A stretch of 35,134 nt of DNA from Bacilli bacterium (GTDB taxonomy: Bacteria > Bacillota_I > Bacilli_A > RFN20 > CAG-826). The stretch spans positions 1-35,134 of the forward strand of contig JAFYAZ010000015.1 of the NCBI GenBank assembly GCA_017540455.1, read 5' to 3'. A model generated the notes under the pieces. It saw only the letters and a program-made list of their open reading frames with translations, was not told the DNA's origin and did no database searches. The position numbers were made by a program, and so were the translations under genes. Positions within the stretch are counted from its first letter, which is position 1, and each line of letters starts with the position of its first letter. Below are positions 1 to 27,719 of this stretch, piece by piece.

Positions 1-25
1 AAGTCTTATAGGTGGAGGGGGAAAA

Positions 26-529
26 ATGCCGATCTCAAAACGTACGGCGATTGGCTTCATTGCCGGCAACCAAGAAGCCATCGAAAAAGTATACCTTGAG
101 TACAAAAATCTCATGTATTTCGTCATCGCCGCCTACGTCAAAAACCAAGACGACTGTGACGATGTTTTGAGCGAGGCGTTCCTTAAGGCGGTTGAGCATA
201 AGGATCAACTAAAAGATCCTAACAAACTCAAATCCTTCCTCTGTTCGATCGCCAAAAATAAGGCTATCGATTTCATGAAGAAGAACAGAGCTCTCCCTTC
301 CTCCGATCTCATTGAGGAGATATACGGCGAAGAAGAAAGAAGCAACCCTGTCCTCAACATGATCGAACCCCTCCTTTCCAACAAGGAGACAATCATAGTC
401 TATCTACGCGCAATCCATTCCTATTCCTGGGAGGAGATCGTCGAGGAAACCGGCATTCCCGAATCATCCGCCAGGAGAATCTACACGAACGCGAAAGAGA
501 AACTAAGAAAGGAGCTATTATGGGCTTAG
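26..529 (+). CDS. Sigma-70 family (ECF-like) RNA polymerase sigma factor
   Basis: A 167-residue alternative sigma factor that should direct RNA polymerase to a small regulon. Residues about 19-85 read as sigma region 2 (YLEYKNLMYFV, then DDCDDVLSEAFLKA and the basic AIDFMKKNR end). Residues about 115-165 read as region 4, a helix-turn-helix (YSWEEIVEETGIPESSARR followed by KEKLRKEL). Only these two regions are present and the size is normal for ECF-type factors. The ATG follows a strong AGGTGGAGGG ribosome site at 11-20. Its 3' end overlaps the next gene by 10 bases, so the two are almost certainly cotranslated; the usual partner in that position is an anti-sigma factor. The promoter lies outside the window. 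The family is clear; the regulon is unknown. Confidence 0.9.
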   Translation: MPISKRTAIGFIAGNQEAIEKVYLEYKNLMYFVIAAYVKNQDDCDDVLSEAFLKAVEHKDQLKDPNKLKSFLCSIAKNKAIDFMKKNRALPSSDLIEEIYGEEERSNPVLNMIEPLLSNKETIIVYLRAIHSYSWEEIVEETGIPESSARRIYTNAKEKLRKELLWA

Positions 530-2178
530 ACAAAAGAATGAAGAAAAGAATCCAACAGATCGACAAGAACCTGGATGCCATAGTTAAGAATCCTTACGAG
601 AAAAAAGAAATAATCGAAAAGAAACCTACGAGCTTCCCAACATGGGCAAGGTGGGCTCTCCCTCTTGGCGGCGCGGTTTTGACTGCTTCTTTGGCCTTAG
701 GCATCGTTCTTCCTATTACCCTCTTAGGAGGAGGCTTAAACGCCAACCCAGGCACCGCAACAGCAAGCGCGCCTTCACGCACTGACAACGACAAGGACAA
801 TCCTCGTGAACCAAGCGGTTCTATGACAAAACATAACCCGAACCATTATGACGAATACCAAGATGGAACTTACACGCCTGAAAACCTCAATTGCCTAATC
901 TCTCCAAACAAAGGAGCTACCAGAGATGGTGTCACCAGCCGCATGAGTGAAACCACATACAATTCCTATAAGGCTTTTGCGAAGAAATTCGTCACTTTGA
1001 TGATGGAAGTCAATAATCCTGCCGGTTCTTCTGAAGAGAGCCTTGCCATCTCGATCCCTGACGCTTACATCGCTCTCGCCATCACCGGAATCATCTCTGA
1101 TGAAAATGGTTTGCAGGATGTTCTGAGTTATCTTGAGTTGGAAAACATAACCGCTCTTAAAAACGCCGCAAAACAAATCATCTCCAATCTCGGAACGATG
1201 GAAAAAGATTATGGAGGAAACGACGTCGGAGGACTCAATCTCAATTCCATTTGGCTCAATCCGGAAAAGATGTCCTTGCTCGCCGAAAAAGATGAAGATC
1301 TCTATCGCGACCTCAAAAATATCTTTGAGGCTTCTCTCTATCTCGATGGGCTTACCAGCAACAAAGCCAAGCAGTACATCGGCGAGAATGGATTGCCTGA
1401 TAAGCCTATCCCAAATATCGAGCTTCCTCACGATGACAATCCTGCCGCTGTAAGCGTTATGTCCGTCTATTACGATATGGATGTTTTTGAGGCCTCGGAT
1501 TGGTATCGGAGCGAATATCAGAGCGGCCAACATACGATGAGCTACACGTTTGGTGGAGTGACCAAGCAGGTCGATTACATTGGCAAAACTGAACGCCACA
1601 AAGAAATCTTCGAAAACGACAATCTCACTGGCACGACCATGTCGCTTGATAATAGCCATATCAACTTCTTCTTACCGAAGGATGAGACCGCTATGCCTAG
1701 CACGATTCTTGATGATGTGCTCGATAAGAATTACTCTCCTAAAACATTCACTTACACAAGCAAAACCGGAGAGGAGGAAGACACCACTCTATGCGATGTT
1801 AATGTGTCTGCCCCATACTTCTTCTTGGAGAATAAGGCGCTTTTAGAAAGAGAATACTTACTTCCACTCTTCCCTAGCCTCACTTCCCATGGAGTTGCCT
1901 CACGTCTTGCTTCATCGAAGAACGGATTACCTGTCGCTCTCGAATCCATAATGCAGTTCTCTACCATGAGATTCGATTACAACGGTTTCTATTCTTGCTC
2001 CGCGACGATTACGCTCTCTGATACGGCGTCTGCCAATCGTGACCCTGTGGTGGTTGACTTCGCTTTGAACCGTCCTTATGCGTTTGAAAGAAGCAGATAT
2101 ATCCGTAACAGTGACGGCGGTGCTTACGAAGTCCCTATCATTGTTGGCGAGATCGTCGATCCTAATTACCTCGTCTAA
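520..2178 (+). CDS. Single-pass membrane protein with extracytoplasmic serpin-like domain (putative anti-sigma partner)
   Basis: A 552-residue protein. Residues 1-44 are a charged cytoplasmic tail, about 45-70 a membrane helix, 73-145 a low-complexity Ser/Thr/Asn/Pro stalk. From about 148 to the end the order of motifs matches the serpin fold: an AFAKKFVTLM helix, SIPDAYIALAITG followed by LQDVLSYL, the NSIWLN segment near 240, SVMSVYYDMDVFE, MSLDNSHINFFLP, a reactive-loop-like GFYSCSATITLS (489-500), the NRPYAFE strand (517-523; compare serpin DRPFLF) and a C-terminal VGEIVDP. The first ten bases overlap the sigma gene and the ribosome site AAAGGAG sits at 508-514. Position and topology suggest an anti-sigma factor with a serpin sensor; that role is inference. 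The serpin assignment is by motif order, not by a profile search. Confidence 0.75.
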   Translation: MGLDKRMKKRIQQIDKNLDAIVKNPYEKKEIIEKKPTSFPTWARWALPLGGAVLTASLALGIVLPITLLGGGLNANPGTATASAPSRTDNDKDNPREPSGSMTKHNPNHYDEYQDGTYTPENLNCLISPNKGATRDGVTSRMSETTYNSYKAFAKKFVTLMMEVNNPAGSSEESLAISIPDAYIALAITGIISDENGLQDVLSYLELENITALKNAAKQIISNLGTMEKDYGGNDVGGLNLNSIWLNPEKMSLLAEKDEDLYRDLKNIFEASLYLDGLTSNKAKQYIGENGLPDKPIPNIELPHDDNPAAVSVMSVYYDMDVFEASDWYRSEYQSGQHTMSYTFGGVTKQVDYIGKTERHKEIFENDNLTGTTMSLDNSHINFFLPKDETAMPSTILDDVLDKNYSPKTFTYTSKTGEEEDTTLCDVNVSAPYFFLENKALLEREYLLPLFPSLTSHGVASRLASSKNGLPVALESIMQFSTMRFDYNGFYSCSATITLSDTASANRDPVVVDFALNRPYAFERSRYIRNSDGGAYEVPIIVGEIVDPNYLV

Positions 2179-2180
2179 CA

Positions 2181-2212
2181 AAAGAGGCCACGGAAAAGTG
2201 GCCTTTTCTTTT
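2181..2212 (+). terminator. Intrinsic terminator of the sigma/serpin operon
   Basis: AGGCCA at 2185-2190 pairs with TGGCCT at 2199-2204 around an 8-base loop, followed by a T-rich run (TTTTCTTTT). It sits just after the serpin-like gene's stop. Confidence 0.8.
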
Positions 2213-2259
2213 AGAAAGGTGTTGCGGTTTCCCTTCTTTTTAGAGTTCAATTAAGGGGT

Positions 2260-2895
2260 ATGAAAAAGAAGATAATCGTTTTGGTTGTGAGCCTCTTGCT
2301 CATTTGTCTCATCACTTTCAGCGCCCGACTCATCCCTGGGGACATCGTTTTTGCTCTCAGATTCGCCCTTATAGTCCTTATCAATCTCCTTAATGGAGCG
2401 GTCGCTTTGGTGGCCATCAAGATCACGGGCATTAAGATTGGTGTTGAGCTCGCTAACTGGAAATCCTATTTGATCGGTTTAGGCGTCGCTCTCGTATTAT
2501 CTTTCTTCATCGCTTTCTTACCGGCCCTCTTAGGCTTTTCCCTCGTCGGAGATCATGTTGATTTTTCCCCGGCGAACCTCTTCCTCAACCTTTTCTTCTT
2601 TATGATTATCATTGGACCGGTGGAAGAGCTTATCTTCCGAGTCTATGTCCAGGAGACCTTCATTGGTTTCTTCACCAAGCATAAGTGGATTGCCGTCATC
2701 ATTGCCTCTGCGTTATTTGGTCTATGGCACTTCATCAATAACGGCGACTTCGCCCAAGTCCTCTTCACCTTTGGCATCGGCGCGGTCTTTGGCTTTGCGA
2801 AATACTTCATCAAGGAATGCAAGTTCGTCGGTGTGGCCTTCGCCCATGGCCTCTATGACTTCCTAAACGTCATAGTCCGATTCTTCGTCGTTTAA
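2260..2895 (+). CDS. CPBP family intramembrane glutamic endopeptidase (CAAX protease/Abi type)
   Basis: A 211-residue polytopic membrane protein with about six hydrophobic segments. It carries the three CPBP motifs in order: EExxxR (E122, E123, R127 in VEELIFR), FxxxH ending at H157 (FGLWH) and HxxxD (H196 and D200 in HGLYD). These residues form the active site of Rce1-like intramembrane proteases. Bacterial members process peptides or act in bacteriocin immunity; the substrate here cannot be told. The AAGGGG ribosome site at 2253-2258 lies only one base before the ATG, an unusually tight spacing, yet no other start fits the first membrane helix. It is monocistronic between two terminators. 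Confidence 0.88.
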   Translation: MKKKIIVLVVSLLLICLITFSARLIPGDIVFALRFALIVLINLLNGAVALVAIKITGIKIGVELANWKSYLIGLGVALVLSFFIAFLPALLGFSLVGDHVDFSPANLFLNLFFFMIIIGPVEELIFRVYVQETFIGFFTKHKWIAVIIASALFGLWHFINNGDFAQVLFTFGIGAVFGFAKYFIKECKFVGVAFAHGLYDFLNVIVRFFVV

Positions 2896-2920
2896 AAAAG
2901 ACCGGTCATCCGGTCTTATT
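2894..2920. terminator. Bidirectional terminator between convergent genes
   Basis: AAGACCGG (2898-2905) and CCGGTCTT (2910-2917) form a perfect 8-bp stem with a 4-base loop. On the minus strand it is followed by six Ts (plus-strand A-run 2894-2899), so it best serves the leftward acyltransferase gene. It can also end the rightward protease gene. Confidence 0.85.
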
Positions 2921-4154
2921 ATTTGATTTTCTCTTTCTTGAGATCGTATATGGCTTCGACTGCGAATCTTATCTTGGTCAGCCATTTTTCTTTATGGAGA
3001 GGATAAGCGAAATATGTCTCATCAGGGGAGGAGAGGTCAATGAGTCCTCCTTTCCCTTTCCAGTTGTAGTCGATATGAAGACCAAAGCTCTGAAGAGGTT
3101 CCCTATGGAAGACGATTCCACTTGGTCCTTTGACGATGATTCCATTATCGATGTCATGGGTGAGGTGGTATTCTCCTTCTAGAGGAACGAAGCCAATCTT
3201 GACGCCTTCCATCTTCTTCATTCGTATATCGTCTTCGAAGTGATATGTTCCATCTCTGACTTCTTTCTCGACGTTGGATTTCTCCCATTCGAACCAACTA
3301 GAGATCTTGGTGAATTTGGCTTCTCCGTTGACGCAAGACAAAGTCCCATCTTCGTTCAAGCGATATTCTACTCCGCATGAGTCGCATTTGAGGGTGTCTC
3401 CATTTGAAGACATCTCAAATTCTTTTCCGCAGTGGGGGCACTGATAAAGGACCCTCTCAAGCCCGACCGCTCTATTCGGATAATCGATTTTGATGTGGTT
3501 TTGCAGTTGATATTCTTCTTCGTCAAAATTGAAGCAATTCCTGATGATTTTCTGAATATCTCCAGCAGAAAGCTCCTCAATTTCGCTTTTTGAGATGACG
3601 CATTCCATCTCTGCGGTGATTGGGACTGGCCTAACTTGTTGGTCGCTCCACTGAGGTTGGCGAAGATAGCTTCCGTGGCAGTTAAGGAAGACGACAGGGA
3701 CTTTCATGTATTTGATGAGTTTGCCTAATCCTTCATCGATCCTCAAAGGTTTGCCAACGAAGGAATAAACGGCCTCAGGATACATGACCATGATCTTTTT
3801 CTTCTTTTTGAGGACATCGGCCATGCTGATAAGACTTCTAGGGTCATTAACAAAACGCCTCTTCGGCATGATGCCGGAATGGACGCAGACGAAATACTTG
3901 TCGATGAATTCCTCGGCTGCGCAAACCCAGTAGCTTCTTCGAGGGCTGGTCGCTCCTAAACCGAGATAGATATCCATGAAGGAGGAGTGGTTCGACAAAA
4001 GGATGTATGGAGGCTTTGGCATCTTGCCGATCTTCTTGATCGTCGCCTTTTCTTTCTTCCTCGCGAAATAGGCGGCAGTCCTGATGATGAAAGAGAAAAG
4101 GAAAAGGATCCTTTTCGGCTTCATATGGACATCAATCCTTTTGATTTTCTTCAT
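2919..4154 (-). CDS. PlsC-like lysophospholipid acyltransferase with C-terminal zinc ribbon
   Basis: A 411-residue protein. Residues about 12-30 are hydrophobic. The acyltransferase core carries the NHSSFMD block, that is the HX4D catalytic pair H56/D61, then GIMPKRRF (about 94-101) and YPEA (125-128), the glycerolipid acyltransferase motifs. Such enzymes acylate lysophosphatidate at the inner membrane face. After residue 230 comes a C-x2-C...C-x2-C zinc ribbon (C239, C242, C257, C260) and a roughly 140-residue beta-rich tail not seen in plain PlsC. The ATG at 4154 lacks a good ribosome site, and a TATAAT lies only 10 bases upstream. An internal ATG at 4124 (M11) has AAGGA upstream and may be the real start. 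The acyl acceptor is not determined. Confidence 0.85.
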   Translation of the reverse strand: MKKIKRIDVHMKPKRILFLFSFIIRTAAYFARKKEKATIKKIGKMPKPPYILLSNHSSFMDIYLGLGATSPRRSYWVCAAEEFIDKYFVCVHSGIMPKRRFVNDPRSLISMADVLKKKKKIMVMYPEAVYSFVGKPLRIDEGLGKLIKYMKVPVVFLNCHGSYLRQPQWSDQQVRPVPITAEMECVISKSEIEELSAGDIQKIIRNCFNFDEEEYQLQNHIKIDYPNRAVGLERVLYQCPHCGKEFEMSSNGDTLKCDSCGVEYRLNEDGTLSCVNGEAKFTKISSWFEWEKSNVEKEVRDGTYHFEDDIRMKKMEGVKIGFVPLEGEYHLTHDIDNGIIVKGPSGIVFHREPLQSFGLHIDYNWKGKGGLIDLSSPDETYFAYPLHKEKWLTKIRFAVEAIYDLKKEKIK

Positions 4155-4255: not shown

Positions 4256-5929
4256 ATGAAAAGAAAGACTCCTTTTTTGATGGCCACCATGCCTCTATTT
4301 GCTATTGCGACCTTGGGCGGTTGCAATACCACCCCACGCAATTCGACGCCTAAGAGCGAAGAGCCAGAGGAAAGCAAGCCTCTTGAGGTTGGCGACACCG
4401 TCAGGATGTGGACCTCACCAGAGGACTACGAGAACGCCCCTTTAGGTTTAGCGGAAGGATCAGGCACCGTCGCCATCTCTGAAGATGATGGATACGATGA
4501 CTATTACTCCCTTTCCTACACCCTCACAAAAGAAGGATATATCGGAAGCGACCTCATCGAGGAGCCGTATTTCAAAGATGAAGACGCCAAGAACGGCGAC
4601 ATCATCTCCCTTTACTATTACCTTCCTGCGAATAGCAACATCAAGACCATCCAGTTAGAGGCTCTCCCATGGAATAGCCGTGCCTCAAGCGTCTTAGGCG
4701 AAGCGGTCACCGTCACCTCTAGCGTAGAGGGCGAATGGAATCAGATGGAAATGACCTATGACACCCTCGAAATGCTTGGCTCATTAAGGATTAACTACAC
4801 CCTTACGGACTCCACAAAACAAGGAAAGATCCTCCTCGATGACATTGAGATCACCTATGGTGAAGAAACCGTTAAGACCAAATACGAATTTAATGACGAA
4901 TCCCTCTATCAGACATATGAGGATTACTTCAAACTCGGAACCTGCATGTCAGACACGATGGTAAGAAATACCGAGATCAGGAAAATCACCATCGACAACT
5001 TCAATTCCATCACCGCGGAAAACGAAGGAAAACCTGAGCGAATCCTTGACCAAGAAGCGTGCCAGGCTCTTCTTTCTAGCGATCCAGCAGGGGTTGCCAT
5101 CACCACAAAGCCATTCGAGAGAATCTACGATTGGGCGGCTGAGAATAACATCGGAGTGAGACATCACACCTTTGTTTGGTATTCCCAAACCCCAGCCTGG
5201 TTCTTTACGACCGACTACACCCAGAACGGCCCGAAAGCGAGCCGTGAGCTCATGCTCGAGAGAATGGAGAATTACATCAAAACAACCATTGAGATCCTCA
5301 ATGAAAGATGGCCGGAAACCGTGTACGCCATCGACGTCGCTAACGAAGCGGTCGAAAACGGTGGACTCAGAACAAATAACAACAACTGGTACACCACAGT
5401 TGGAGATGACTTTGTTTATTACGCTTTCAAATACGCTTCCGAAATCAAGGAAGAGTTAGAGATGGACGTTGAGCTTTATTACAACGACTTCGCCTTCGAC
5501 TATCAGCCAAATCTTTGCCAGTGGGCTATCAATAATATCCTCAAAGACGCCATCGCCGAGAACCTCATCGATGGTGTCGGCATTCAAACCCACTTAGATT
5601 CCGGTGCGAATATGGACAACATCATCAACGACGCCAAATACATCAAACAAGCAGGTCTTAAGTGCCAGCTCACCGAGATCGACATCACCACAAACGGCAC
5701 AAGCCAAAACGAATACGATAAGCAAAGCAACGCTTACAAGACCCTCATTAAGAAGGTTCTTGATAACAACTCCTTAAGACAGACCGATATCAATGCCGTC
5801 ATCCTTTGGGGCGTCACCGATAACCTCTCCTGGAAACGCAACCAGTACCCTCTTCTCTTCACCGAAGAATATGAGAAGAAGCCATGCTACACCGGTTTCC
5901 TCCAAGCCTTATCCGAAGCCAACATCTAG
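4256..5929 (+). CDS. GH10 endo-1,4-beta-xylanase, surface lipoprotein
   Basis: A 557-residue secreted lipoprotein: a basic N terminus, a hydrophobic core and lipobox LGGC with C23 as the lipidated residue. Residues about 45-200 form a beta-rich module resembling a carbohydrate-binding domain. From about 215 on is a glycoside hydrolase family 10 barrel: RHHTFVWYSQTPAWF; the acid/base glutamate E364 in DVANEA; GVGIQTH; the nucleophile E474 in LTEIDI; and the family-typical LWGVTDNLSW near the C terminus. It should cleave internal xylan linkages outside the cell. The ribosome site GAGGAAAG lies at 4245-4252. It has no CAZyme neighbours, so it looks like a stand-alone fibre-degrading enzyme rather than part of a polysaccharide locus. 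Confidence 0.93.
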   Translation: MKRKTPFLMATMPLFAIATLGGCNTTPRNSTPKSEEPEESKPLEVGDTVRMWTSPEDYENAPLGLAEGSGTVAISEDDGYDDYYSLSYTLTKEGYIGSDLIEEPYFKDEDAKNGDIISLYYYLPANSNIKTIQLEALPWNSRASSVLGEAVTVTSSVEGEWNQMEMTYDTLEMLGSLRINYTLTDSTKQGKILLDDIEITYGEETVKTKYEFNDESLYQTYEDYFKLGTCMSDTMVRNTEIRKITIDNFNSITAENEGKPERILDQEACQALLSSDPAGVAITTKPFERIYDWAAENNIGVRHHTFVWYSQTPAWFFTTDYTQNGPKASRELMLERMENYIKTTIEILNERWPETVYAIDVANEAVENGGLRTNNNNWYTTVGDDFVYYAFKYASEIKEELEMDVELYYNDFAFDYQPNLCQWAINNILKDAIAENLIDGVGIQTHLDSGANMDNIINDAKYIKQAGLKCQLTEIDITTNGTSQNEYDKQSNAYKTLIKKVLDNNSLRQTDINAVILWGVTDNLSWKRNQYPLLFTEEYEKKPCYTGFLQALSEANI

Positions 5930-13449: not shown

Positions 13450-15387
13450 ATGAAGTGGGCTTTGTTCGTCTTCGCTTTTGTCGCGCCAATAATCGTTAAC
13501 GGCATCTTTTTCTTCTTCGAGACCTTCAAGAAGAAAGAAAATCTTTCTTTTAAAAACAAAACCGTTCAGAAAGAGCTTTGGAACCTTGGAGCATCCTTCG
13601 TCCTTTGCCTTATCTCCGCGATAGTCGGCCTCTTCTCCAGCGACGTCTCTGCCATGAATATCTTCGTTGGCAATCTCTTTATCTGCCTTTTGGCAAGAGA
13701 GATGACCCCGCTTATCAAACTCGATTGGAAGAAACTCGATAAAAAGGCCATCACCCCGATCGCCAAAGCCGCGATTGCTCTTCTTGGATTCATCTTCGAA
13801 ATCAGCCTCTTCCAAACCTGGTCGATCTATCTTCTTTCCGGAATGAGGTTAGGGGCGTTCGCTCTCCTTGCCTATCTCGTTGGCAACCTCACCGAATCCT
13901 ATTACGAGAACAAAGACCTTTCCATCATCAGAGTGGCCTTCGCTTTCTTCTTCATCGTCTTCCTTTTCTACACAATCTCAGATCCGAAAGCCTGGTTCGA
14001 TGCCTATCCATTTGAAGATGGCCTCAAGTATCTTGAGGATAACCCATATCTTTACTACAACCAGTTCGACGCTTTCATGCATGGGCAACTCCATCTTGCA
14101 GCAGAGCCTGATCCTCGTTTGGCTTCGTTAGAGAATCCATATGACCCATATCAAAGAGTTGGCATCAGCTATCTTTGGGATACCGTCTATTGGAACGGCA
14201 AATACTATTCGTATTATGGGGTCGCCCCGATCTTCTTCGTCATGTTCCCTGTCTATATTCTTTCAGGGTTCACGATCGTTCCTAATGGCTTGTTCTGTCT
14301 CACTCTCGCGACCGTCCTCTACGCGTATGGCATCTTCAGGCTTTCTCTTCTTCTCAAAGGGAAGTACGCTGCCAACCTTCCAAGCTGGTTTGTCTATGCC
14401 TTTAGCTTCCTCGTTTTCGTCTCGTCCTTAGGGTATAACTTCCTTAACTTCAGATGGACGGATTGGAAATACAGGGTTCCATTCGCCTATGCCGTAGTGG
14501 GCATGGTCTTCTTCCTCGCCTATTTCTTCGAAGGCCTCAAACGGGAAGGAATCAAACAACATATCTACTGGGGATTATCCGCTTTGTTCTATGTCCTCAT
14601 CATGGGCTCTAGACCTGAGCTTGGCATCATCGCCATCCTCATCGTCCCATACCTTGTGAAATATATTCTCCAAGGCAGGACAAAGAACGCGAAAGGGGAG
14701 AAGAATAATCTTTATCCTCTCATCCCATTTGCTGCCGTTCTTGTCGTTGGAGGCATTGCCCTAGCAGGATACAACTTCCTCCGTTTTGGCAGCCTCACTG
14801 AATTCGGCTCGAATTACCAGCTCACGATCAATGACGCCAGGACGAATTCCCTCGACTTAGAGCATGGTCTCTTCGACGCTTTCTACCATTATTTCTGGCA
14901 GCAGCCTATTTTCTCCATGAAGATAGAAGAGACAGGATTTGCAGGGTTTTTTGACTTTGGCCAGTTCCCATTCATAACCACTCAGTATGTCGGTCTCCGC
15001 TATGAGACTCATGTCTATATCTCTCATTCCGTTGGCCTTCTTTCTAGCCCAGCCTTCTATCTTGGATTGCTCCTTCCTTTCGGCTTAGCGGCCCATAAGA
15101 AGATTGAGGAGTGGGTCTATCTCATCCTTCCTCCGTTCCTTCTTCTCATCCTTTGCTGGCTTATGTACTGCCTTGGCGGCGTCTGCATGCGCTACATCCT
15201 TTACTTCTGGCCTCTTGCCGGGATCTGGGCGATGTCGGTCTTCTATTCTTCTTGCTCAACTTTGACAAAAGAAAAGAGCACCAGGACACCTTTGATGGTT
15301 TTGTCTCTAGTGCTTCTTGCTTTAGGTGCTTTCCTCGCCATCAACTTAGGCATGAACCCATTCGATGGCTGGCAGATAGTCGGCTAA
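13450..15387 (+). CDS. Polytopic GT-C-like membrane protein (putative lipid-linked-sugar glycosyltransferase)
   Basis: A 645-residue integral membrane protein with about a dozen hydrophobic segments. A long outward loop (about 178-257) holds an Asp/His-rich patch (NQFDAFMHGQLHL from 204), LENPYDP and YWNGKYYSYYG (247-257). This loop after early helices, with acidic residues, recalls GT-C enzymes that move sugars from polyprenyl phosphate to envelope acceptors. A soluble segment near 455-500 and more helices follow. GGAGGA (13433-13438) lies in the end of the isomerase gene, only 3 bases upstream, so it closes the serC operon. The convergent neighbour is another GT-C protein. The GT-C assignment is by topology and pattern; donor and acceptor are unknown. 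Confidence 0.65.
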   Translation: MKWALFVFAFVAPIIVNGIFFFFETFKKKENLSFKNKTVQKELWNLGASFVLCLISAIVGLFSSDVSAMNIFVGNLFICLLAREMTPLIKLDWKKLDKKAITPIAKAAIALLGFIFEISLFQTWSIYLLSGMRLGAFALLAYLVGNLTESYYENKDLSIIRVAFAFFFIVFLFYTISDPKAWFDAYPFEDGLKYLEDNPYLYYNQFDAFMHGQLHLAAEPDPRLASLENPYDPYQRVGISYLWDTVYWNGKYYSYYGVAPIFFVMFPVYILSGFTIVPNGLFCLTLATVLYAYGIFRLSLLLKGKYAANLPSWFVYAFSFLVFVSSLGYNFLNFRWTDWKYRVPFAYAVVGMVFFLAYFFEGLKREGIKQHIYWGLSALFYVLIMGSRPELGIIAILIVPYLVKYILQGRTKNAKGEKNNLYPLIPFAAVLVVGGIALAGYNFLRFGSLTEFGSNYQLTINDARTNSLDLEHGLFDAFYHYFWQQPIFSMKIEETGFAGFFDFGQFPFITTQYVGLRYETHVYISHSVGLLSSPAFYLGLLLPFGLAAHKKIEEWVYLILPPFLLLILCWLMYCLGGVCMRYILYFWPLAGIWAMSVFYSSCSTLTKEKSTRTPLMVLSLVLLALGAFLAINLGMNPFDGWQIVG

Positions 15388-25877: not shown

Positions 25878-27719
25878 ATGAAAAAATCAAAAGCTCCAAT
25901 TTTTGTACTTGCGATTCTTTCAGTCGTCATGCTTGGCGCTGGTATCGCAGTCTACATCGTGGCCCCAAGTATGGCAGGTGGTTGGGCGGACACATTTAAA
26001 CACGCCGACCTCTTAGGCTCTCTTGGTGAGTTGCCAGCCGTTTTCGGAACTCTCATGGGATTCGAGAACAAAGAACTTTTCACAAAGTTCGAAATCGGCG
26101 TTCTTATCATGGACGTCTTGATCCTTGCAGCCTTGGCAGTTCTTGTCATCATGTGGATCATCAACCTCATTCTTCTCATCGTTAAGAAGAAACCTATCCA
26201 CTTAATTCCAAACCTCGCTTGGCTTCTTGCCTCAGGCGCTGCCGTCATCTTATTGGCCCTCGCCCTTGTCCCAGCCAAACAAGGTTCCTCCTTTGTTGGT
26301 GTCCTTTTCGAAGGATCCGGCATGGCAAAAGATGGCATGGTCTGGTATCACGATGCCTTAGGCGCCATCGGAAGCTCTATCTCTAGCGAATACGGCAAAG
26401 GCCTTGGCCTTGCTGCCGGACTTTTCATCCTTATCTTAATCGCCGCTTACATCATTGGCCTCGTCGCCATCATCAAATCAACCGGCGCTCTTGCTAAAGA
26501 AAAGAAAAAGAAGAAAGTCGCTGATGAAGAAGGCGCTGACGAATACGAAGAAGACGAAGAAGAATGCGAATCCGAAGAAGAAAAAGATGATAAGCGTTCC
26601 GAGAAAGCTGGACCATACATCATCCAGAACTTCTATAATGGCGCTCCAATGCCATATTGCTACCCACCTCACGAATGTCATTGCCATGAGCCAAAACCTG
26701 AGCCAAAACCTGAGCCAGAGCCAGAGCCATGCAAGTGCGAATGCTGCGAAGAAGAGGACAGACCTCTTACCGCCAAAGAGCTTCGTGCCATCATCCGTGA
26801 AGAATTAGACGATCGCGAGCATCCAGAAGAGATCGAACCTCTTACCGATGAAAGAGCCCGCGAAGTCATCCAGGAAGAACTCGCTGATTACTACACTGGC
26901 AAAGACGAAGAAGAGCCAGTTGAAGAAGAAGCAGAAGACGTCATGACTGCCGATGATCTCAGGAAGATGATCAAAGAGGAAGTCGAAGGCGCCGTCAAAC
27001 CAGCCGAAGGCCTTACCTCCGAAGAAGTTCGTGGTATCATCCGCGAAGAACTCGGTGCCGCTCCAAAAGCCGAAGAACCAAAAGACAACCTCTCCGCTGA
27101 GGAAGTCCGTTCCATCGTCGCCGAAGAGCTCGCCAAATATCTTCAGAACATCGCTGTTGTTGAAGAAGTCGAGCCAAAAGAAGAACCAGCACCTGAGCCT
27201 GAGCCAGAGCCAGAGCCAGCACCTGAGCCAGAGCCAGAGCCAGAGCCAGCACCTGAGCCAGCCGCTCCAGTGATCCGTCTCTCCTTCGCTGAGAAAGTCA
27301 CTGCTGCCCCTCAGGAAGTCAAAGACAACTACAACGACCTCAAAGCCTACGCCTTAGGCTATGGCCTTAAGAGCCGTGTTGCCAATGGTGGCGATACCTT
27401 CCGTCTCCACACCAAGACCTACTTCCGTATCAACATGGTCGGAAAAGGCCTCAAGCTCTACTACGCCCTCGATCCAAAGGATTACGAGAATTCCCCAATC
27501 CCAGTCCAGGACGTTGGCCACAAGAACCTCTACAAAGATATTCCTCTTTGCTTCAAGGTCAGAAGTGGTCTCTCCGTCAAGCGTGCCAAGCAGCTCATCG
27601 ATGATGTCTGCGGAAAAGCCGGCTTGACCGCTGGAGCTCCAGTCGACACCCGCGACTACGCCGCCGATCTCGTTAACTACGTTAATGATGGCAGCGAAAG
27701 CACTGACGACGAAGACTAA
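25878..27719 (+). CDS. Large membrane protein with acidic linkers, Cys/His cluster, 14-residue helical repeats and a C-terminal domain
   Basis: A 613-residue protein of no recognised family. Four membrane helices (about 6-28, 72-103, 109-133, 176-201) are followed by a very acidic Lys/Glu stretch. Next is a Cys/His cluster (C261, H265, C267, H268, C269, H270 and C285, C287, C289, C290) split by a Pro-Glu run. Residues 297-418 hold five copies of a motif like LTxxELRxIIREEL. A Pro-Glu-Ala repeat (about 436-465) leads to a folded C-terminal domain (about 470-600) with FRLHTKTYFRINMVGKGLKLYYALDP; similar sequences end other Firmicutes proteins of unknown role. AAAGGGGA lies upstream. It sits alone between terminators. 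Function cannot be assigned. Confidence 0.8.
   Translation: MKKSKAPIFVLAILSVVMLGAGIAVYIVAPSMAGGWADTFKHADLLGSLGELPAVFGTLMGFENKELFTKFEIGVLIMDVLILAALAVLVIMWIINLILLIVKKKPIHLIPNLAWLLASGAAVILLALALVPAKQGSSFVGVLFEGSGMAKDGMVWYHDALGAIGSSISSEYGKGLGLAAGLFILILIAAYIIGLVAIIKSTGALAKEKKKKKVADEEGADEYEEDEEECESEEEKDDKRSEKAGPYIIQNFYNGAPMPYCYPPHECHCHEPKPEPKPEPEPEPCKCECCEEEDRPLTAKELRAIIREELDDREHPEEIEPLTDERAREVIQEELADYYTGKDEEEPVEEEAEDVMTADDLRKMIKEEVEGAVKPAEGLTSEEVRGIIREELGAAPKAEEPKDNLSAEEVRSIVAEELAKYLQNIAVVEEVEPKEEPAPEPEPEPEPAPEPEPEPEPAPEPAAPVIRLSFAEKVTAAPQEVKDNYNDLKAYALGYGLKSRVANGGDTFRLHTKTYFRINMVGKGLKLYYALDPKDYENSPIPVQDVGHKNLYKDIPLCFKVRSGLSVKRAKQLIDDVCGKAGLTAGAPVDTRDYAADLVNYVNDGSESTDDED
27186..27265 (+). repeat. 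30-bp in-frame tandem repeat (Pro-Glu-Ala)
   Basis: The unit beginning CCAGCACCTGAGCC recurs at 27186, 27216 and 27246 with a 30-base period, encoding the ten-residue unit PAPEPEPEPE. A shorter 12-bp repeat (CCAAAACCTGAG) lies in the same gene near 26690-26715. Such tracts change length by slippage. Confidence 0.85.

Follow-up and report, generated by a model that had tools for sequence, protein, structure and literature searches.

What would a membrane-anchored serpin be doing in a gene that overlaps the gene of an ECF sigma factor? The question arises in an uncultured member of the Bacilli, and we addressed it in a window of 35,134 nucleotides, the whole stretch of DNA that was analysed. 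The first nucleotide of the window is also that of contig C35, which belongs to a draft genome of 1.16 Mb. The nearest named relatives of this genome are metagenome-assembled Bacilli labelled Bacilli, Bacillales or Erysipelotrichaceae, several of them from the forestomachs of sheep, water buffalo and roe deer.

The sigma factor gene and its surroundings

The features of the locus are summarized in Table 1. The preliminary description had the serpin gene overlapping that of an ECF-like sigma factor; indeed, both reading frames are real and share 10 nt. The overlap suggests that the pair belongs to one transcription unit. The 167-aa product of the upstream gene matched the Pfam families Sigma70_r2 (E 5.8e-12) and Sigma70_r4 (E 1.2e-5) and scored above the cut-off of TIGR02937, the NCBIfam model of the ECF superfamily. 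It is short and contains regions 2 and 4 with no region 3, as expected of an ECF sigma factor. The genome carries four ECF sigma genes, three of which are directly followed by a membrane serpin. The gene of a large membrane protein (1940-3180) overlaps the fourth (L070:1402-1977). This partner, an anti-sigma factor of another type, lacks a serpin and has an N-terminal motif that contains FVP and is repeated.

Table 1. Features of the sigma-serpin locus in window coordinates.
Feature	Position	Strand	Remarks
-10 element GTCTTAT of predicted sigma-dependent promoter	3..9	+	Shared motif
ECF sigma factor gene	26..529	+	167 aa; region 2, aa 23-88; region 4, aa 117-162
Predicted transmembrane anti-sigma factor with serpin sensor	520..2178	+	552 aa
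Cytoplasmic tail, aa 1-45, predicted sigma-binding	520..654	+	Kept in relatives with other outer domains
Single membrane helix, approximately aa 46-71, N-in by basic tail	655..732	+	Hydropathy
Low-complexity extracellular linker, aa 72-143	733..948	+	Low model confidence
Serpin domain, aa 144-550	949..2169	+	Family profile, AF2 model, structure matches
Reactive-centre-loop region, aa 489-516	1984..2067	+	Conserved hinge, then variable loop, aa 503-516
C-terminal serpin strands, NRPYAFE (aa 517-523) and VGEIVDP (aa 542-548)	2068..2163	+	Sequence
CPBP/Rce1-like intramembrane protease	2260..2895	+	211 aa; Pfam; directly downstream of the pair

The gene of the CPBP protease adjoins the pair in the window and in L058, L060, L061 and L014, amounting to about half of the orthologous loci, and is absent beside the pair in L056, L057 and L059. 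Since this adjacency is missing in some orthologous loci, we dropped the protease as a dedicated partner; its role is uncertain because adjacency alone is insufficient to assign one. Further along, the window encodes a secreted GH10 xylanase lipoprotein (4256-5929), which fits a plant-fibre gut habitat. Two large ORFs, 25878-27719 (613 aa) and 13450-15387 (645 aa), have no convincing Pfam family, the sole Pfam signal of the former being a weak low-complexity match.

The fold of the outer domain

The outer domain of the 552-aa protein comprises approximately 405 residues. Searched alone, the protein had no Pfam match at E ≤ 1, none in NCBIfam and no PDB serpin. These single-sequence results looked like a refutation of the serpin assignment until family profiles were used. 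Matches to the window family were found in 21 of the 97 genomes searched (the window's own and relatives), some of them to the tail only. A profile of the family matched 41 PDB sequences, all of which were serpins (best E 1.4e-8). Individually, six of 17 family members matched Pfam Serpin (PF00079), with a best E of 9.5e-13. Profile-profile alignment using hhalign against bona fide serpins of the same genus yielded an E of 7.6e-27 over 452 columns.

The predicted structure pointed to the same fold. In the AF2 model, the outer domain had a pLDDT of approximately 85, and its top PDB matches were all serpins, with latent tengpin (Z 33.4, 349 residues, 3.0 Å) and cleaved serpins in the lead; native tengpin scored 28.4. 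The input alignment was shallow (11 sequences), with two of the five models at a mean pLDDT of approximately 70 and three at 40-45, and details of the state of the loop should be read with caution for these reasons. Based on comparison of profiles and of the model, we regard the serpin fold of the outer domain as settled, as the preliminary description had proposed from motif order and as the fold comparison that it suggested now bears out. We considered the ATA/ASA sequence that follows the helix in the window as a signal-peptidase site and dropped it, as L006-L008 do not keep it. The window-type serpin domain also occurs as a free lipoprotein without a sigma gene (L062).

Coupling of sigma factors and membrane serpins

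The window's genome has two further pairs. On contig C1, the coupled protein has an outer domain that Pfam itself recognises as a serpin (E 4.5e-42), and on C10 it belongs to a family that reaches Pfam Serpin at 1.3e-8. We surveyed serpins across the order, restricting the count to loci whose readable upstream sequence was 400 nt or longer. Serpins with an internal membrane helix lay directly after an ECF sigma gene in 74 of 74 cases, often with a 4-nt overlap, versus none of the 65 serpins with a signal peptide or lipoprotein signal. The latter include L173 and L174, annotated with an internal helix and lacking a sigma gene; we rejected them as exceptions because their start codons appear to be miscalled, a signal peptide lying further inside each. 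The Fisher p of approximately 3e-41 is indicative only, as the loci are related to each other and thus non-independent.

At least 20 genera from four families of the order have such pairs, as does a second order, where four loci in genus g189 have the same layout and a canonical inhibitory hinge; the sampling covered one phylum, the phylum-level sample being almost wholly of the class already seen. Thus, comparison of gene order supports the coupling of ECF sigma factors to membrane serpins that was proposed from this one locus, and the genome survey suggested alongside it found three pairs in this genome and others in many genera. Free lipoprotein serpins without a sigma gene are common in the order. 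Membrane serpins of family f17 (L191, L196 and L220-L229) have no adjacent ECF sigma gene, and some carry long insertions. Two serpins of the same class, L187:1483-2712 and L183:1420-2571, have no obvious signal peptide and are apparently cytoplasmic.

The tail and helix as a predicted anti-sigma module

In the 552-aa protein, a hydropathy peak near residue 51 follows a K/R-rich tail, which fits a single helix with the tail predicted to lie inside. This agrees with the short cytoplasmic tail and lone membrane helix of the preliminary description. No known anti-sigma domain (zinc-binding or RsgI N-terminal) was found in the protein using Pfam at E ≤ 1 or NCBIfam. With no described domain match in its tail, the protein is classed as one that works like an anti-sigma factor through an undescribed tail: a predicted single-pass anti-sigma factor whose tail would bind the sigma factor.

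Searching with the tail and helix revealed three proteins, L246, L251 and L252, with homologous tails and unrelated, non-serpin outer domains. Their sigma factors are 57-72% identical to that of the window. The retention of sigma factor and tail while the sensor was swapped indicates that tail and helix form a modular anti-sigma unit and, by comparison of these loci, that the serpin is one of several exchangeable sensors. The preliminary description had counted sigma-linked homologues without the serpin against its proposal. Such pairs do occur; we read them as swaps of the sensor on a common module. In the window's genome, a secreted lipoprotein bearing the promoter motif described below (L274:1534-2397) is homologous to the swapped sensor of L251 (aa 158-324; BLASTP 7e-26). 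Judged by this match, a sensor and a predicted target of the sigma factor have a domain in common.

Promoter motif and predicted regulon

The sigma gene and lipoprotein genes have a common upstream motif, TTTTKARCGNTW-N15-GTCTTRT. For the window's sigma gene, the -35 part, TTTTGAGCGTTT, falls just beyond the edge of the window and is read from contig C43 (L066, motif start at 1501). This contig overlaps the first bases of the window and carries the lipoprotein gene array that precedes the sigma gene. Allowing a spacing of 14-16 nt, we found 18 occurrences in eight of 37 genomes of the genus, always with a spacing of 15 nt, and no occurrence of a reversed control pattern in the same 37 genomes. 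The motif was present in seven of the eight genomes with a window-type pair (seven full pairs and one fragment) versus one of the 29 others. Those sites that were readable lay directly before the start of a sigma gene or a secreted lipoprotein gene.

The lipoproteins upstream of the sigma gene, each of approximately 300 aa, belong to one undescribed family and are encoded in tandem arrays of one to three genes (L066, L057-L061), many of which carry the motif or a variant. They had no match in Pfam or to PDB profiles, and none by Foldseek at E 0.05 or better.

To score serpin genes, a promoter matrix was trained on promoters with the motif, none of them from serpin genes, and run over serpin upstream regions. 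The null maximum over 1500 shuffles was 14.9; the score was 23.3 before L001, which has a variant of the motif upstream and is the only free lipoprotein serpin that we found in the genome of the window. Free serpins scored at least 14 in six of eight carriers of the pair versus two of 49 other genomes outside genus g51, although the weaker scores are tentative, since the threshold of 14 lies a little under the null maximum. In carriers G008 and G019, the matrix scan did not find the motif before the free serpins. For the other sigma-serpin pairs, a loose ECF promoter motif occurred before ten of 68 sigma genes and none of 68 free serpins, with approximately 0.06 expected, which is no more than suggestive of a loose common promoter.

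Based on these promoter matches, the regulon of the sigma factor probably comprises its own operon and secreted lipoproteins, in this genome including the free serpin L001. Promoter matches before secreted serpins and lipoproteins predict a loop in which the membrane serpin senses, the sigma factor responds and secreted products follow.

The reactive-centre loop

When a protease attacks the exposed loop of a serpin, the hinge of the loop inserts into the main sheet. In the window serpin, hinge residues G489, F490, S492, S494 and T496 are conserved on one face. Within the window family, the sheet-facing positions P14, P12, P10 and P8 had entropies of 0.61, 0.75, 0 and 0.29 bits, versus 1.39, 1.19, 1.65 and 1.32 bits for the alternating positions P13, P11, P9 and P7, and the loop past the hinge is variable. 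A conserved sheet face with a variable distal loop fits selection for insertion together with a fast-changing protease specificity. The AF2 model came out with the loop inserted.

The hinge consensus of inhibitory serpins is Gly at P15, Thr or Ser at P14, and small residues from P12 to P9. The window hinge keeps Gly at P15, Ser at P12 and P10, and Thr at P8, and has Phe at P14, Tyr at P13 and Cys at P11. The window-type loop is approximately 5 residues longer than that of alpha-1-antitrypsin. The P14 Phe and the long loop suggest that the window serpin may be a poor inhibitor that might bind proteases without trapping them. Loss of the hinge is not general in the group: some coupled relatives (L083, L046 and L054) have a textbook inhibitory hinge, with the small-residue sequences EAAAVT in L083 and GEGAAVT in L046.

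Proposed mechanism and alternatives

The reading that we favour, and consider somewhat better supported than not, is that the protein is an anti-sigma factor in the membrane, that its serpin loop serves to sense proteases, and that a switch of the loop and proteolysis free the sigma factor. Here, the tail would hold the sigma factor at the membrane, and the exposed loop would be the bait for an extracellular protease. Once the loop was attacked or cleaved, its hinge would be driven into the main sheet. This insertion would leave the anti-sigma factor open to proteolysis in several steps, the last of them by a site-2 protease. Most simply, release would take the route of RsiV and RsiP, with site-1 cleavage before the site-2 protease; the genome encodes a site-2 protease. 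The freed sigma factor would then transcribe its own operon and the secreted lipoproteins, here probably including the free lipoprotein serpin. Binding of the sigma factor by the tail, a protease as the signal, the triggering role of the loop switch, release through intramembrane proteolysis and the regulon are all inferences. By analogy to tengpin, in which an N-terminal extension stabilises the native state (PMC8233489), an N-terminal membrane tether could plausibly read the switch. In the fullest version, the system is a one-shot alarm: a protease irreversibly flips the anchored serpin, freeing the sigma factor and inducing secreted serpins and lipoproteins in a self-matching defence loop. 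This version is possible but somewhat less likely than not. The preliminary description had put forward such a one-shot protease sensor, for which the conserved face of the loop hinge, the loop-inserted model and the promoter motif before secreted serpins give indirect support.

Some serpins are reversible binders, as the hormone-binding serpins are. The outer domain could be a receptor of this sort, binding of a ligand or protein alone exposing the anti-sigma factor to proteolysis. The departure of the window-type hinge from the inhibitory consensus at P14 favours such a receptor, as does RsiV, in which the mere binding of an enzyme from the host can be enough for release (PMC6066255). Nevertheless, the selectively conserved sheet-facing residues and variable distal loop resemble those of protease-bait loops, and several coupled relatives keep the canonical hinge, so we consider a plain receptor rather unlikely.

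The commonness of free lipoprotein serpins without a sigma gene, and the f17 membrane serpins without one, would suit a surface inhibitor that shields the cell and is co-transcribed with a sigma factor controlled otherwise. This is improbable given that every internal-helix serpin of the order, and no secreted one, directly follows a sigma gene, and that the recurrence of this tail and sigma factor alongside unrelated outer domains is not accounted for by chance co-transcription. We give even less credence to a simple degradation sensor, in which removal of the outer domain by any protease starts intramembrane proteolysis and the serpin contributes a protease-sensitive loop only. The cut pieces of a cleaved serpin remain joined through the folded body, so loop cleavage alone would not shed the domain, and conservation of the inward face of the hinge is left unexplained. 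In favour of such a sensor are the site-2 protease of the genome and the usual route of such anti-sigma factors, intramembrane proteolysis after site-1 cleavage (PMC8844934).

Relation to known systems

The proposed sensing of proteases through the serpin loop has its nearest parallel in RsiV, an anti-sigma factor that is a lysozyme receptor and is freed by proteolysis (PMC6066255). Like the pair described here, RsiV and sigma-V of Bacillus subtilis and Clostridioides difficile combine an ECF sigma factor and a single-pass anti-sigma factor; as proposed for the pair, the outer domain directly senses a hydrolytic enzyme, and stepwise proteolysis ends with the site-2 protease (PMC6066255, PMC9044953). 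The outer domain of RsiV binds lysozyme, whereas that of the pair is a serpin with a predicted protease signal and predicted irreversible loop insertion. In the RsgI/SigI systems of Clostridium thermocellum, each genome likewise has several sigma factors paired with membrane anti-sigma factors of one family, whose sensors resemble parts of the secreted products under their control (PMC3990059, PMC12484212). The resemblance of the L251 sensor to a secreted lipoprotein, together with the free serpin domain L062, recalls this arrangement. However, the RsgI sensors are carbohydrate-binding modules, and the window tail has no RsgI domain detectable using Pfam.

Among serpins, the closest solved fold is tengpin, a prokaryotic group T serpin; neither a sigma link nor a membrane anchor is described in PMC8233489 for tengpin and other group T serpins. 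The cellulosomal PinA serpins of C. thermocellum are, like the window serpin, surface serpins, in their case of a fibre degrader and directed against subtilisin-like proteases, but they are cellulosome-borne effectors rather than sensors, with no sigma coupling described (PMC12484212). In the open-licence PMC literature, we found no report of a serpin linked to a sigma or anti-sigma factor and no described precedent for an anti-sigma factor using one, in agreement with the preliminary description. On that literature, what appears to be new is the serpin as sensor; pairing of an ECF sigma factor with a membrane anti-sigma factor is already known.

The coupling, the promoter motif and the predicted targets make the proposal directly testable in a laboratory host. 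If it is true, bacterial serpins, whose part in signalling has been little explored, would gain a receptor role, and ECF sigma systems would gain a sensor that records protease attack once and irreversibly. These uncultured gut Bacilli probably sense attacking proteases and respond by secreting proteins, further serpins among them. As Bacilli from ruminant guts carry the pairs widely, the pairs may set the response of these bacteria to the proteases there.
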